From: a virus
Reading direction: 5' to 3' (one strand)
Length of the DNA stretch: 40,008 bases
IMG/VR virus record: IMGVR_UViG_3300024520_000186
Coordinates: 1 to 40,008 of that record
This document shows, piece by piece, positions 13,255 to 40,008 of the stretch. A program made the position numbers and the translations under genes. The notes under the pieces are model-generated. The model did no database searches and was not told where the DNA came from. It saw only the letters and a program-made list of their open reading frames with translations. How positions within the stretch are numbered: position 1 is the first letter of the stretch; each line of letters opens with the position of its first letter.

Positions 13255-13448
13255 AGTTTCTCCTGCCATTTCTCTTTAAGCTTTTTCCGGCCTGTCCTAT
13301 TTTTGAGACTCTTGAGTGTGACGATAACGCTTTTAAGGTATAGCGTCAACGCCCTTGCCTCAACCATCGAAAGGGTAGCGTAAGAAAGTTTATGGAGTTC
13401 TCCAATAAGTCTGTCCCTTGTGAGTTTTGGTGGTCTTTTAGAGTTCAT
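13251..13448 (-). CDS. Small basic helical protein
   Basis: The 65-residue protein (MNSKRPPKLTRDRLIGELH) is strongly basic, ending KNRTGRKKLKEKWQEKL, and is mostly helical. It could bind nucleic acid. It overlaps the replication initiator gene by 4 bases and the 13048 gene by 4 bases. No family was recognised. Confidence 0.6.
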   Translation of the reverse strand: MNSKRPPKLTRDRLIGELHKLSYATLSMVEARALTLYLKSVIVTLKSLKNRTGRKKLKEKWQEKL

Positions 13449-14530
13449 GCAGCAGCCTCCACAAATTCAACGCTCATATTTTCACCGCTGACGAATTCAA
13501 CGGCCATTTCGACTTCGTTCTGGAAATCTTGCAAGGCGACCAGTGAAGCCACAGGCACTCCAATTTTTACGAATCCATTGACTGACACGATATTCGCACC
13601 TGCCAGGAGCTTTCCCACATAGGCGTTTTGCCTCATGACGGCGGCCTGTAAGCTCTCAAAAAACTCAGGTTCTTCTATCCCCGCCCGATGCAAAACAGAC
13701 TCAGGAATCGCCACGCCGCGTCCCTGCTCAGGAAAAGGCGGCGCGTCTGACGTATCAATGCCTGACCTCAACGTTTCAAACACCATGCCTGCCGGGTTGG
13801 TGAGATTGTCCCATGATACGGAGTCTCTAACGTGTCGGAATGCTCCTTCAATTTCTTCTTTGGAATATCCTTCTTTTAGCATAGCGAATAATCCACCTTG
13901 TTCAACATTGGGGAAGCCTGCATCTTTTACGCTTTTTAAAACATTAAAAAACCAATCTTTGTCATCATCATCATTACTCAATGATGATGTAGATGTATTT
14001 ATTAATGTCTTTTTATATGTACTTATAGCGTCCTTTTTTGGGGGGTCGGACGTGCCGTCTTGCCCTACTGAAATAGGCATCTGCGTATTAGCCACAGGTT
14101 TACACGTATTAACCACAGGTTTACACGTATTAACCACAGGTTTACAGGTATTAACCACAGGTTTACAGGTATTAACCACAGGTTTACAGGTATTAACCAC
14201 AGGTTCACACCCTTCCTCACTTTCGGCTATATCAGAGACTTTGGAGGATGTTTTTATGTATATCCTCCGCCTGTGTTTCTTGTCATATTCAAGGCGTATG
14301 TAGCCTTGTTTCCTAAGCTGCCCTACCCATTTCGAGACAGCTTGACGGCTTACTCCGTAAAGTTCCGCAAAATATTCGTTCTCTGCCGTGCAATATCCAA
14401 ATAATTTCGTCAGGGCTGTAATTTCTCCATAGAGCAGTTTCGCGTTCGGATAAATCTTCTTATCATACCGGACATCAGCCGGAATGATGGCGAAATACGC
14501 CGGGTTTTGTTTCTCTTGTTTTTCTTCCAT
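13445..14530 (-). CDS. Replication initiator-like protein with N-terminal winged HTH and internal repeats
   Basis: The first 95 residues match the HTH_36 / phage replication O-type pattern: YFAIIPADVRYDKKIYPNAK, then a recognition region LYGVSRQAVSKWVGQLRKQG and RIYIKT. Residues about 109-150 are six tandem heptads, CKPVVNT with small variations, encoded by 21-bp DNA repeats. A helical C-terminal domain follows (PNVEQGGLFAMLKEGYSKEE and later AVMRQNAYVGKLLAGANIV). Lambda O and many related phages carry iterons of the origin inside the initiator gene, so the repeats are probably the origin. The start codon follows GAGGAAAGAAACGA. Confidence 0.75.
   Translation of the reverse strand: MEEKQEKQNPAYFAIIPADVRYDKKIYPNAKLLYGEITALTKLFGYCTAENEYFAELYGVSRQAVSKWVGQLRKQGYIRLEYDKKHRRRIYIKTSSKVSDIAESEEGCEPVVNTCKPVVNTCKPVVNTCKPVVNTCKPVVNTCKPVANTQMPISVGQDGTSDPPKKDAISTYKKTLINTSTSSLSNDDDDKDWFFNVLKSVKDAGFPNVEQGGLFAMLKEGYSKEEIEGAFRHVRDSVSWDNLTNPAGMVFETLRSGIDTSDAPPFPEQGRGVAIPESVLHRAGIEEPEFFESLQAAVMRQNAYVGKLLAGANIVSVNGFVKIGVPVASLVALQDFQNEVEMAVEFVSGENMSVEFVEAAA
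14085..14210. repeat. Six tandem 21-bp iterons, candidate replication origin
   Basis: Six contiguous 21-base units run from 14085 to 14210. Each has the core TTAACCACAGGTT and they differ at only a few positions. Each unit has an internal inverted element AACC-ACA-GGTT. They lie inside the initiator gene and encode a heptad repeat. The arrangement resembles origin iterons rather than CRISPR, since no spacers occur between units. Confidence 0.8.
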
Positions 14531-22490: not shown

Positions 22491-25400
22491 TTAAGACTCG
22501 ATACACACTTGATCTGAACCGATATACACCAAATCATTTTTGATATATATAGTATGGTCAAGCGTAAGTCCTTCCAATCCTTGTAAGGTTAAGGTAGACG
22601 TGAAATCATCCAAATTGATAGTTTTTTCCCTAAGCTGAAACACTTTTCTCGTTTCTACGTCCCCGTTTTTATCGACAATCAACGATAGTGTCGCCTCTAA
22701 TTGGTCAAGAAGGTCAATAGGCAAATATTTAAAGTCTTGACCCTGGTATGACACCACCCAAGCGGGGGATGTGTAGAGTTTCAGGAGTCTATTTTTGATA
22801 AGGTTGACCGTCGCCGTGTTTCGTGTCCAGTCAAAATTAAAATCCCATGTCTTACCCGTGTAATTTTTATTAGCAGAATATAAATCAGAATCGTCTACCG
22901 TTCTATAATACGAGGTATCCGCGCCCGTTTTGAATCTCCTGTCAATCTCGACAGCAGATACAGCGTAATTTATAATCACCCTGTCAAGCACGTTCTCAAT
23001 GTCTTTTTGCGCGCTGTAGGTGATAGCCTCATATTCAAAGATCTCGTCTTGCACGCTATCCTTGTCAAGGAGAGGCAAAAAAGAAATGACAAGCTTTCCC
23101 TGCTCATTGAAAGCAAACGAACCCGCAAAAGAATTGAGGATATTTCTAATCCAGAAACCGAGTTCTTTATTGACCAGAATCATTCCCGCACACGTGTACG
23201 AATTGAGAATGCAGAAAGTTTCCCCCTCTGCGAAGGATGTCGTGTCTTTCTCCCATGCCAAATTTCCGACAAGATCCGCCACGTAATCGAGCAGATCCTC
23301 TATAATGTCCACAGGATTTGTGAGGAGTATCCCCCCTGACCATTTCCCCTGACACCGGACAGTCACAACGCTATCCCCTTGATCTGCTGAAAAAGTGAGT
23401 TTGGCTATCGCGCCCTGACTCTCATAATCGTCGGATTCGTCAAACGTCCAGCCTGACGGCGTCAATACATCGTCAACCCAGACAGAAACTGTGTTGCCTT
23501 GTGCGACGGAAGCAATAGTCCAGCCTGCCACGCAATACACAAAATTCACGCTATCAATGAGAGGAGCGACCCAAACCCCAGCATCTGAGTTTTCTATACA
23601 ATCCCCATATATGAGAGGGCGGTTGACGTTTTTCTGGTTGTTGCCAGGATTCGTATAAAGGGCTGTGGTAGGGAATACCACCTCTGTCAAGGCGTCTATG
23701 GAATCCTCTCCGTCTACCGTGCTTGTCACTTCGACCGCTGTTCCGTATGCCGTCCATGTGCCATCAACAAGAGCGAGATCCGTGCCTGTGATTTGTTCGG
23801 GAAAATCAATTGGTGTGTTGTCTGACGTGTTGAGCAGTTGATATGTTTCACCAGCAGGGTTGGAAAAGTTCATATTATAAATTTGACCGTTGAATCCATT
23901 TGTACCGTCCCCCCCAACATAAATGTCTTCGTTGGAAGTAGGGGTATCTTCGGTCGTATCGAATGCTGGAGTTCCAAACTTTTGCACTCTATGATTTCCA
24001 TCTGATACAAAAATATCACCCGCCGAATCAATAGCAATACCAAAAGGATTATTGAATTGCCCATCACCAGAGCCAGAACTCCCAAACTGCGAGATGTACG
24101 ATCCAGAAGAATCAAATTTTTGGACTCTGTGATTGCTTTGATCTGTTACGAAAAGATTTCCTTCCGTGTTGATTGCGATCATTGCCGGATGCGTAAATTG
24201 CCCATCACCAGAGCCAATACTCCCAAACTGTGAAAGGTACGATCCGGAAGAATCAAATTTTTGGACTCTGTGATTGCTCACATCTACTACAAAAATATTT
24301 CCTGCCGAATCAAATTTAATCCCGATTGTACCACTTGTAAATTGTCCATTCCCAGAACCAGAACTCCCAAACTGTGAAAGGTACGATCCGGAAGAATCAA
24401 ATTTTTGAACTCTGTTTTGGATGCTATCCGTGACAAAAATATTTCCTGCCGAATCAATATCAATTCCTGACGTTCTTGTAAATTGTCCATTCCCAGAGCC
24501 AGAACTCCCAAACTGTGAAAGGTACGATCCGGAAGAATCAAATTTTTGAACTCTACTATTTCTACTATCCGTGACAAAAATATCACCCGCCGAATCAAAA
24601 ACTATATCTATCGGTTTGTTAAATTGTCCATTCCCAGAGCCAGAACTCCCAAACTGTGAAAGGTACGATCCGGAAGAATCAAATTTTTGAACTCTGTGAT
24701 TATTCTGATCTGCTACAAAAATATTTCCTGCCGAATCAATTGTCACGCCTCGTGGAAAACTAAATTGTCCGTTCCCAGAGCCAGAACTCCCAAATTTTGA
24801 GATATACCCAAAAAGAGACTGTTCGAAACAATCTCCTGTATTACAAATCGACAAAAACCCTGGTGTCGTTCCCCACTGAAATATAGGGAAGTTTGCCCCG
24901 GTTGAGGCTGTTACGTCTGATGTGATTGTGGTGTAAGTAGGAGAGCCTGTCAGTGCGTCCGGCGTGTATTTCACGTAGTAGAAATCATTTGCATCTATCC
25001 CGATTTCCAGACGGGTTGAACCAAAATTATTATTTTCGAGACGGAATAAAACCTCTGCGGTTCCGGTGGTGTCCCTGTTCATTTCCATTGACCATTCCCA
25101 TTCAGACGACACATCCGTAAAGAAGAGAGGCTCAACCGTTGCGTAGATGTATGACTCATACGCTGCCTTTGTCGCCCCGCCTGCGTTGTCCAGTGCGTAG
25201 GTTGTGGTAGTGTCCAGGGTTGGGGCTGGGGGATCTTCCGGTTCGACTGCTTGATCTGCCAGAAATTTAATATTCTGAATCGTCAGGGTATAAGCGGAGA
25301 TGACCCCGTTAAACAGGGGCTGAAAGTCTGCGAAGACAAACCCAGGATACGCAAACCCCTGGTAGAGTGCTAATTGACCGCCGATGAACTCTTCACGTCC

Positions 25401-25700
25401 GCAGATTGTCGTGAAATACCCGTCAGCATTGTCACAAGTGAGGGTGTAAGTAGCCATCTCTTGAGTCGAAAGAGAGGGAAATATCTGGTCACTTTCTTCG
25501 GAGAGAGCCTGCCGGAAATCACCAAACGATAAGACTCTTGCGCTCCATTCTAAGGTGTCGATTGTGCTACCAACATAATCGGATGTGGGGGTTTCTTTGC
25601 CAAAACACCGCGTTCCCCTGTCGGAACCAACAAAGGCCATAATGAACGGCTTTGCGCCTGCCTTGCGAGCCTTATTATAGTTGTCGGTATATCGTCTCAT
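22491..25700 (-). CDS. Large tail/baseplate protein with inserted six-repeat NHL propeller
   Basis: The 1069-residue protein has an N-terminal domain like distal tail or baseplate proteins (YVGSTIDTLEWSARVLSFGD). A LamG/concanavalin-like segment follows (TGTAEVLFRLENNNFGSTRL). Residues about 292-578 are six NHL units of about 47 residues, each with GSGNGQF, DSAGNIFVTD and VQKFDSSG. After them the LamG-like fold seems to resume (IYVGGDGTNGFNGQIYNMNF). The C-terminal 400 residues resemble a tail hub domain. A six-bladed propeller is likely to bind host glycans or proteins. The start overlaps the upstream stop as ATGA. Confidence 0.8.
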   Translation of the reverse strand: MRRYTDNYNKARKAGAKPFIMAFVGSDRGTRCFGKETPTSDYVGSTIDTLEWSARVLSFGDFRQALSEESDQIFPSLSTQEMATYTLTCDNADGYFTTICGREEFIGGQLALYQGFAYPGFVFADFQPLFNGVISAYTLTIQNIKFLADQAVEPEDPPAPTLDTTTTYALDNAGGATKAAYESYIYATVEPLFFTDVSSEWEWSMEMNRDTTGTAEVLFRLENNNFGSTRLEIGIDANDFYYVKYTPDALTGSPTYTTITSDVTASTGANFPIFQWGTTPGFLSICNTGDCFEQSLFGYISKFGSSGSGNGQFSFPRGVTIDSAGNIFVADQNNHRVQKFDSSGSYLSQFGSSGSGNGQFNKPIDIVFDSAGDIFVTDSRNSRVQKFDSSGSYLSQFGSSGSGNGQFTRTSGIDIDSAGNIFVTDSIQNRVQKFDSSGSYLSQFGSSGSGNGQFTSGTIGIKFDSAGNIFVVDVSNHRVQKFDSSGSYLSQFGSIGSGDGQFTHPAMIAINTEGNLFVTDQSNHRVQKFDSSGSYISQFGSSGSGDGQFNNPFGIAIDSAGDIFVSDGNHRVQKFGTPAFDTTEDTPTSNEDIYVGGDGTNGFNGQIYNMNFSNPAGETYQLLNTSDNTPIDFPEQITGTDLALVDGTWTAYGTAVEVTSTVDGEDSIDALTEVVFPTTALYTNPGNNQKNVNRPLIYGDCIENSDAGVWVAPLIDSVNFVYCVAGWTIASVAQGNTVSVWVDDVLTPSGWTFDESDDYESQGAIAKLTFSADQGDSVVTVRCQGKWSGGILLTNPVDIIEDLLDYVADLVGNLAWEKDTTSFAEGETFCILNSYTCAGMILVNKELGFWIRNILNSFAGSFAFNEQGKLVISFLPLLDKDSVQDEIFEYEAITYSAQKDIENVLDRVIINYAVSAVEIDRRFKTGADTSYYRTVDDSDLYSANKNYTGKTWDFNFDWTRNTATVNLIKNRLLKLYTSPAWVVSYQGQDFKYLPIDLLDQLEATLSLIVDKNGDVETRKVFQLREKTINLDDFTSTLTLQGLEGLTLDHTIYIKNDLVYIGSDQVCIES
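23965..24815. repeat. Six imperfect tandem repeats of about 141 bp encoding NHL blades
   Basis: Six units of about 141 bases recur in the tail gene. Blades 2-5 share long identical stretches at the DNA level, which points to recent duplication or gene conversion. The first and last blades have diverged more. Confidence 0.85.
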
Positions 25701-33035: not shown

Positions 33036-33968
33036 TTAATTCGTACTTCTTGTCAGTTCAATATAATCATTGTCGGCTTGCACATACAGAGTCAAGGTCT
33101 CATCGACGCTCGCCGTCCATGCTGCTGAAAGTGCGAAATTCCCGGCGTCTGCGATTGTGCTGCTATTGGTAGCACTTCCGCCCACAAGAATCACGATGCT
33201 TCCTACAATCGGATTATCAAGGTCTGTAATCGCCGTCGCTCCTGTATTAGCGGATGTCGTCAGAATGTGGCACCCAGCCACGTCTGGAGTCAAGTCACCA
33301 TCAGGAATCGTGCATTGTTCATATTTGATAGCCCCGGCCAAATACACGTCACCATTCAGGTCAATCTGTCCATTAGTGCTGTTCGTGATTGTCTCGTCAT
33401 TCTCCATGATGAGACCACCAGCCCCCACAACATCTAACGAACCCGATACAGTTACATTCCCAGTAACCGCCACTATCGGCTCAGTAATCGTCAACGTGCC
33501 ATTAACAGAGTTGTCAATCGTCGCTGCGTTTACGAGAGTCAAAACGCCTGTACTTCCCAGGTTCATCACAGTGGCGGCAGTTGCTCCTGCCGTCATCAGC
33601 ATCCAGTCAATTTCAAAATCTTCTGAGGCTGCGGTAACATCTGACACCTTGACAACTGTCCTCGCTCCCAATTCTGTATTGGCGGATGTTGTTTCCTGAT
33701 ACCAGTCCAAAGATAAACCAATCCCGTTCGCAGGTGTTCCGCTGGTGGTATGTGTGAATGTAACCAGAGGATGCACTGTCGCTGTTAATGCGGTTTCTTC
33801 TGAAACATCCCAACCGTCAGTGCTGCCAACAAGAGAAATCTGCATTGAATTGGATGACTGATTCCAGATGTCTTTAATCATTGCATCCTGCATATTAAGG
33901 GCTTGCGCCATAGTGGTAAAACCAATCATGAACACGCAAAAAATGACTATCGCTTTAAAGTTTCTCAT
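33036..33968 (-). CDS. Signal-peptide-bearing protein encoded in the head operon
   Basis: The 310-residue protein starts MRNFKAIVIFCVFMIGF, a standard Sec signal with basic n-region, hydrophobic core and an AQA-LN cleavage site at about residue 24. The rest is beta-rich (GTLTITEPIVAVTGNVTVSG, then ITNSTNGQIDLNGDVYLAGA), like trimeric fibre or beta-helix proteins. Virion proteins are normally cytoplasmic, so the exported form is odd: a surface or periplasmic factor is possible, or the signal is a remnant of a host gene. Its start overlaps the upstream stop (ATGA). Confidence 0.6.
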   Translation of the reverse strand: MRNFKAIVIFCVFMIGFTTMAQALNMQDAMIKDIWNQSSNSMQISLVGSTDGWDVSEETALTATVHPLVTFTHTTSGTPANGIGLSLDWYQETTSANTELGARTVVKVSDVTAASEDFEIDWMLMTAGATAATVMNLGSTGVLTLVNAATIDNSVNGTLTITEPIVAVTGNVTVSGSLDVVGAGGLIMENDETITNSTNGQIDLNGDVYLAGAIKYEQCTIPDGDLTPDVAGCHILTTSANTGATAITDLDNPIVGSIVILVGGSATNSSTIADAGNFALSAAWTASVDETLTLYVQADNDYIELTRSTN

Positions 33969-39188: not shown

Positions 39189-39743
39189 TTACGTGTCAAA
39201 CCCTTCAGGAATCGGCGGAATTTCATTTTCAGGCGTGAATCTAACCCCGCCTGCTCTCATCTCTGCTCGTGTTAGTGCTTTCTTCAGGCACCGGCAGTTA
39301 AAATCCCAGGGTAACTTGACATCCTTCCAGACTTTATGATCCGCTGGTAACGTGACGCCGTGCCATTTTCGATGTGAACTTCTAACCCTCGTGTCTTCCT
39401 GGGTGACAAGCCGAATCGCATAAGTGCTGCTCTTGTTATCTGCAATTTCTTGGTCTATCCCGAAGGAATACGCACTCTGTCTGGCATAGCGAAACGACAC
39501 GAATAATGCTGTTTTGGTTGCACTTGTTTTCTCTTCTTCCCGAAGATACACTTTAGCCTTTTGCCAGTACGCTTCCCAGGCTTTCTCCTCGTCTCGGATG
39601 TCTAACGTTTCTCCGATTAGCTCTTTCAGCCGTTGCACTCTTCCCAGGCTCTTGCTTGTGTTTCGCAGTGCGGTCACTGTGAATGATGCTCTCTTATCGT
39701 CATCAGAAAGCTTGTCAAAATCTTTACGTGTCAAGACGGGCAT
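39189..39743 (-). CDS. Mu gpF-like (MuF) head morphogenesis protein
   Basis: The frame from MPVLTRKDFDKLSDDDK contains the MuF signature TRVRSSHRKWHGVTLPADH and WDFNCRCLKKALTR. This minor head protein works with the portal at the packaging vertex. Coding-like sequence (ETVPIPDGVVEEARQFIQG) extends upstream in the same frame to the A9 run at 39802-39810, in the -1 register of portal. The ATG at 39743 has no spaced Shine-Dalgarno. It is either a frameshift-fused portal-MuF or a separately initiated protein. Confidence 0.75.
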   Translation of the reverse strand: MPVLTRKDFDKLSDDDKRASFTVTALRNTSKSLGRVQRLKELIGETLDIRDEEKAWEAYWQKAKVYLREEEKTSATKTALFVSFRYARQSAYSFGIDQEIADNKSSTYAIRLVTQEDTRVRSSHRKWHGVTLPADHKVWKDVKLPWDFNCRCLKKALTRAEMRAGGVRFTPENEIPPIPEGFDT

Positions 39744-39772
39744 CCCCTGTATAAACTGTCTCGCTTCCTCTA

Positions 39773-40008
39773 CTACACCGTCAGGTATGGGAACAGTTTC
39801 GTTTTTTTTTCCGCGTCCATTTCTTCCGCGAATTCTGCTTGTTCTCCAGGCTCGTCAGAAATCGTGTCTTCTTCCTGCCCAACTATAATTTCTTCCTGCT
39901 CAATATCAACTTGCGTATCCTGACCATCTGGCGTGGTTGGCATGATGCGTTCGGGTGCGATTAGCTGTAGCTGGGGAACCGCGTCGACCTGACCAAAATT
40001 ATAGTGGA
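39773..40008 (-). CDS. Portal protein C-terminal part, partial at the right edge
   Basis: This reads in the same frame as the left-end copy (YNFGQVDAVPQLQLIAPERI) and stops at TAG (39773-39775). The acidic tail EEIIVGQEEDTISDEPGEQ is followed by an A-run. The full portal would be about 445 residues if the ends join. At the protein level the two copies are nearly identical except in the acidic tail. Confidence 0.85.
   Translation of the reverse strand, partial: HYNFGQVDAVPQLQLIAPERIMPTTPDGQDTQVDIEQEEIIVGQEEDTISDEPGEQAEFAEEMDAEKKTKLFPYLTV
39802..39810 (-). other. A9 slippery run at the portal/MuF boundary
   Basis: Nine A's in the portal frame read GAA AAA AAA ACG. A -1 shift at A AAA AAA, or transcriptional slippage, would give AAA AAA AAC GAA and open the MuF frame. 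Without the shift, portal stops nine codons later. Confidence 0.6.
39847..40008. repeat. Right terminal repeat, imperfect copy of 1-162
   Basis: This segment aligns colinearly with the left end, about 82% identical over 162 bases with no gaps. Most differences are synonymous. Direct terminal repeats of phages are normally identical, so this probably reflects mixed strains in the assembly or two related phages in tandem. Confidence 0.85.

Follow-up and report, generated by a model that had tools for sequence, protein, structure and literature searches.

In phages, -1 frameshifts are known for tail chaperones and capsid proteins (PMC7911831; PMC10885494). The tail assembly chaperones G and GT of phage lambda involve such a frameshift (Xu, Hendrix and Duda, 2004, cited in PMC7911831), and another has been described for the major head protein of Lactobacillus phage A2 (cited in PMC10885494). 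Among bacterial genes, E. coli dnaX undergoes ribosomal frameshifting, while the slippage of Thermus thermophilus dnaX is transcriptional and occurs on nine T/A; bacterial RNA polymerase slips efficiently on A or T runs of this length (PMC5009743). Fusions of the portal and MuF genes have also been found, for example in Microbacterium phage clusters EA and EB (PMC7302621). Thus, both fused portal-MuF genes and phage -1 frameshifts are known, and a frameshift between portal and MuF is apparently undescribed: no report of it was found in the open-access literature (papers outside open access were not covered). The portal does not come up in the accessible part of the main review on recoding, and in PRFect MuF appears only as a fusion.

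Organization of the portal-MuF junction

The window analyzed in this work is the whole virus record, 40,008 bases in length, in which both the portal and MuF are encoded on the minus strand. The portal belongs to the Portal_Mu family (PF06074; E 7e-22, 78.6 bits against a gathering cut-off of 23.9), and MuF to the Phage_Mu_F family (PF04233; E 4e-8, 34.5 bits against a cut-off of 29.6).

The reading frames of the two genes meet at a run of nine A (39810-39802; T9 on the plus strand, 39802-39810), which is the longest homopolymer of the window, the runner-up being one T8. The bare presence of the run was dropped as evidence, since about 1.8 A/T runs of at least nine are expected per window under a first-order model. 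What is remarkable is its place and register. At the junction, the portal frame reads ATG GAC GCG GAA AAA AAA ACG AAA CTG TTC CCA TAC CTG ACG GTG TAG, with the stop at 39775-39773. The MuF frame is shifted by -1 relative to the portal and is open from an upstream stop at 39854 to its own stop at 39189, so that both frames are open at 39773-39854, an overlap of 82 nt. No ATG, GTG or TTG is present in the MuF frame from 39854 to the ATG at 39743, located 29 nt past the portal stop.

The run contains the heptamer A_AAA_AAA (39809-39803), which is placed in the zero-frame phase X_XXY_YYZ ahead of the zero-frame stop, at position -37 relative to the first base past the portal stop. A -1 slip on this heptamer gives the stop-free read-through MDAEKKNETVPIPDGVVEEARQFIQGMPVLTRKDFDKL. 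The sequence-only reading of this DNA had claimed that the two frames meet at A9 and can be joined by a -1 slip without a stop, and both points were confirmed. A single uninterrupted portal-MuF frame is not met in the window, the portal ending at 39773 and MuF lying in the -1 frame. The run also satisfies the length criterion for transcriptional slippage (at least nine A or T).

We did not reveal a stimulatory hairpin above chance 3' of the run (z from 0.3 to -1.2 versus shuffles); such a structure is common in -1 frameshift cassettes but is not required. A weak inverted repeat at 39753-39799, composed of AAACTGTT (39799-39792) and its partner at 39760-39753, was no better than in shuffled sequences. 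The match to the anti-Shine-Dalgarno sequence upstream of the run was also weak.

The portal gene lies across the two ends of the contig: the 5' part and body of the gene (1258-2) run off the contig start, and the 3' end, encoding an acidic tail, occupies positions 40008-39773. The contig ends overlap by 162 nt (1-162 and 40008-39847) with 82% identity, without gaps and with the portal frame kept. The contig seems to be closed on a second strain, so that either two related strains or a mosaic would meet at this point. The portal copy from the contig start, considered as a second-strain check of the run, ends 37 nt before it and therefore cannot confirm it.

Several repeats were found elsewhere in the window. 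An 18-bp perfect inverted repeat (1248-1265 and 1272-1289; fold z -9.5) covers the portal ATG (start at 1258, minus strand). The region 1248-1294 of the same strand contains TTGACA (1294-1289) and, after 17 bp, TATCAT (1271-1266), followed by the ATG 7 bp on; it looks like a promoter combined with a palindromic operator, from which the head operon would be transcribed almost without a leader. The 1069-aa tail ORF (22491-25700) contains, at 23975-24807, tandem repeats of about 141 nt, which encode NHL-like protein repeats. A 21-base tandem repeat at 14085-14210 encodes CKPVVNT about five times in the ORF 13445-14530.

The start of the MuF protein

When read from its first ATG, the MuF gene (39743-39189, minus strand) encodes 184 aa. 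The bases before this ATG are CGAGACAGTTTATACAGGGG, and the sole Shine-Dalgarno-like match, AGGGG, touches the ATG with zero spacing, in agreement with the earlier claim that this start has no usable Shine-Dalgarno sequence. Several other head and tail genes of the window have Shine-Dalgarno matches at 6-10 nt. ATA at 39788, a candidate for a non-standard start, has none.

The start-less segment of the MuF frame at 39744-39803 (NETVPIPDGVVEEARQFIQG) holds the conserved N-terminal MuF helix. The start was examined with a MuF profile whose final alignment contained only relatives, the window being excluded. Profile positions 4-15 align to EEARQFIQGMPV, which is mostly encoded ahead of ATG 39743, and the start-less version scored 116.1 bits versus 110.4 bits for the ATG version, a modest gain of 5.7 bits. 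Furthermore, the first MuF helix is common to 13 diverse MuF proteins, and ATG 39743 falls inside it. Because the observed homology, in both the profile and the shared helix, reaches upstream, and AGGGG lacks a spacer, ATG 39743 is probably not the main start of MuF; the evidence is moderate and not decisive.

Putative slip sites at portal-MuF junctions of other phages

MuF loci were gathered from IMG/VR, GTDB genomes and phage records, and their portal and MuF ORFs were found by profiles. Merging of the MuF proteins at 80% identity gave 135 clusters with an adjacent portal. It should be noted that the survey was not random (it relied on MuF motifs, two Bacteroidota genome queries and one Acidobacteriota query), that related loci are still partly dependent after merging, and that several loci are MAG or metagenome contigs. 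We called an overlap start-less if no MuF start occurred between 60 nt upstream and 6 nt downstream of the portal stop. A slippery heptamer was defined as X_XXY_YYZ (Y = A or T) in the correct phase within the overlap.

A -1 slippery heptamer was present in all 40 clusters with start-less -1 overlaps, versus 7 of 77 overlapping loci with a coupled start (Fisher p ~2e-24). The rule was derived from the initial 30 clusters (30/30) and held in 10/10 Chitinophagales that were held out later; the window fits it too. The start-less overlaps were in the -1 register in 30 of 34 cases, a bias not expected from random indel errors. The proposal of a portal-MuF fusion formed by a -1 shift hence has support from the comparison of genomes but none from experiment.

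In Bacteroidota prophages the slip site is T_TTT_TTC or A_AAT_TTY, mostly beginning 13 nt ahead of where the portal stop ends, and the MuF frame across this stop encodes FFRLSPxDYxGLHxR or KFS...LYxxCxxCGG. Such conserved MuF-frame peptides sit between the slip site and the first start (FFRLSPxDYxGLH in Bacteroidota). Most Bacteroidota relatives possess a 3' stimulatory structure, a GC hairpin that begins five or six bases after the slip site. In eight T_TTT_TTC sites, 95% of the hairpin pair cells are standard and three pairs are changed on both sides; the covariation score was reached by no shuffle. Hairpin z-scores of the sites without A-runs differed from those of controls with p = 2.6e-9. 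Other heptamers were observed as well: Bacillus phage Jayan (L005) has A_AAA_AAG, the heptamer of E. coli dnaX, ten bases ahead of where its portal stop ends, and G_GGA_AAG, the lambda heptamer, lies at the junction of L259.

Runs of A9-A11 at the portal-MuF junction recur in unrelated phages, namely in seven other clusters and in L135. The run is A9 in L053 (= L126), L079 and L208, A10 in L019 (= L031), L135, L194 (Winogradskyella phage Peternella_1) and L256, and A11 in L214. L208 also has A_AAT_TTT, like its relatives, and its class is ambiguous. The slip context of L053, GAA AAA AAA AC, is identical to that of the window. The MuF-frame peptide LExGxLRxAAPxYDxI is common to L053, L079, L135 and L019, and no start lies ahead of it. 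As a group, the A-run sites showed no structure above controls (p = 0.44), with L053 and L151 as exceptions. Only 1 of 93 coupled-start loci has an A/T run of at least eight. Judging by these sequence features, the window is a member of the A9-A11 class, which is usually structure-free.

Some loci had further peculiarities. L135 (3440-3700), from an Acidobacteria MAG with A10 at the junction, has its portal frame broken further upstream. Three Hankyphage-type Bacteroides phages (L195, L200 and L201) contain T_TTT_TTC in the -1 phase, 49 nt ahead of where the portal stop ends, despite coupled MuF starts; a relic or a dual mode is possible. In the Phocaeicola prophage L188 (2986-4858), the frameshifted MuF frame has an extra domain between the slip site and the MuF domain, which carries HELAHY, a zinc peptidase-like motif. 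The MuF frames of L076, L095, L098 and L177 reach 1279-1419 aa, probably owing to added domains.

Alternative explanations

The sequence-only reading had left room for a homopolymer sequencing error. In the main rival explanation, which we consider unlikely, while not negligible, portal and MuF form one uninterrupted gene, and the A9 of the contig reflects an A9/A10 error or just one variant of a run that is polymorphic in length. In-frame fusions of Portal_Mu and MuF in one ORF do occur naturally (14 loci), therefore a joined protein is viable, and L025, whose MuF is among the better matches of the window, is fused. Indels arise at homopolymers, and strains are mixed at the contig ends. However, a contig found in the terminase search, IMGVR_UViG_3300024518_003407, is 100% identical over all its 27,335 bases to positions 5907-33241, without a single indel, including 12 runs of at least seven; it may share reads with the window and stops at 33241, short of A9. 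In addition, no run of at least nine was found in the linkers of the 10 fused one-ORF loci tested, whereas A9-A11 recurs in the start-less -1 class. Consequently, an error is made less probable by the relatives and is not excluded, the run length resting on one contig. Conservation, suggested earlier as a check of the run, is strong for the slip site at the level of the class, where the heptamer is universal and A9-A11 recurs. Near relatives are lacking: none were found in IMG/VR with portal, MuF and capsid peptide patterns, and no relative close enough to show conservation of the window's run was found. A scan with the motif VLTRxDFDKL returned only L025, which was already known, and L247, which is not MuF.

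More doubtful is a separate MuF protein, made either by re-initiation at ATG 39743 past the portal stop or by use of ATA 39788 as a non-standard start. The distance of this ATG from the portal stop is within reach of coupled re-initiation, and starts near the portal stop are used by most relatives (82 of 120 clusters at an earlier stage of the survey; they are also the majority among the 135). But MuF in coupled relatives begins where the portal ends, ahead of the MuF domain, whereas a start at ATG 39743 would cut the conserved helix; the Shine-Dalgarno data are likewise unfavorable for both candidates. It is hardly credible that MuF is decaying or dispensable and the overlap accidental. Its length from the ATG is indeed short, yet the domain core is retained (PWDFNCRC and its neighbours; 116 bits with the family profile), and the MuF of L025 ends at the same point.

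Discussion

We regard it as likely that A9 is a real slippage site giving a portal-MuF fusion besides the portal, no product having been observed. Ordinary decoding of the head operon would yield the portal, ending at TAG 39773. If the ribosome slips by -1 on A_AAA_AAA, which is also a ribosomal -1 site, or if RNA polymerase inserts one extra A into the run, decoding would pass into the MuF frame; both kinds of slip would give the same fusion with the joint EKKNETVPIPDG. MuF with a complete N-terminal helix would arise chiefly by slippage, which would also set a low MuF:portal ratio, resulting in one portal ring with some subunits bearing the MuF domain. It can be inferred that a minority fusion places few MuF domains on the portal ring; this virion role is an inference, as is the very occurrence of slippage in this phage.

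The efficiency and mechanism of the slip can likewise only be inferred. Because no structure above chance is present around the run, we lean to slippage of polymerase or to ribosomal slippage without a stimulator, and these were not separated: RNA-polymerase slippage fits the structure-free A9 equally well. More tentatively, and with the odds slightly against it, -1 slippage may be a widespread and repeatedly evolved way of MuF dosing in Mu-type head modules, with a heptamer-plus-hairpin class (ribosomal, in Bacteroidota) and an A9-A11 class (RNA-polymerase slippage, in other phages including that of the window).

To our knowledge, it is poorly explained how few copies of MuF-type proteins are placed beside the twelve-subunit portal. 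A slip site turning a fraction of portals into portal-MuF would be a direct and testable answer, and a head counterpart of lambda G/GT. The N-termini of MuF proteins are probably misannotated in many prophages, because annotation takes the first ATG, GTG or TTG downstream of the slip site as the start, and the linker is lost. Slip sites are present in isolates, among them Winogradskyella phage Peternella_1, Bacillus phage Jayan and the Bacteroides ilei prophage, in which the idea can already be checked.

In lambda G/GT, as proposed here, a -1 slip close to the end of the frame of an abundant protein turns a minority of its copies into a C-terminal fusion, and the lambda heptamer is also found in the relative L259; however, the lambda proteins are tail chaperones, not portal and MuF, and there is no homology. 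Phage A2 likewise produces a virion head protein in two lengths by a -1 slip, but this protein is the capsid rather than the portal, and what is added to it does not correspond to a separate head protein. Thermus thermophilus dnaX resembles the window in its run of nine and in two products with a common N-terminus; unlike the window, it is a cellular gene, and its long product is in frame 0 instead of -1. In E. coli dnaX, tandem Lys codons slip by -1 on the same heptamer as at the junction of phage Jayan, with a strong upstream Shine-Dalgarno sequence and a hairpin, whereas the window has only weak ones. Finally, the EA and EB fusions unite the same two functions in one polypeptide, but in one frame, so that every portal carries MuF.
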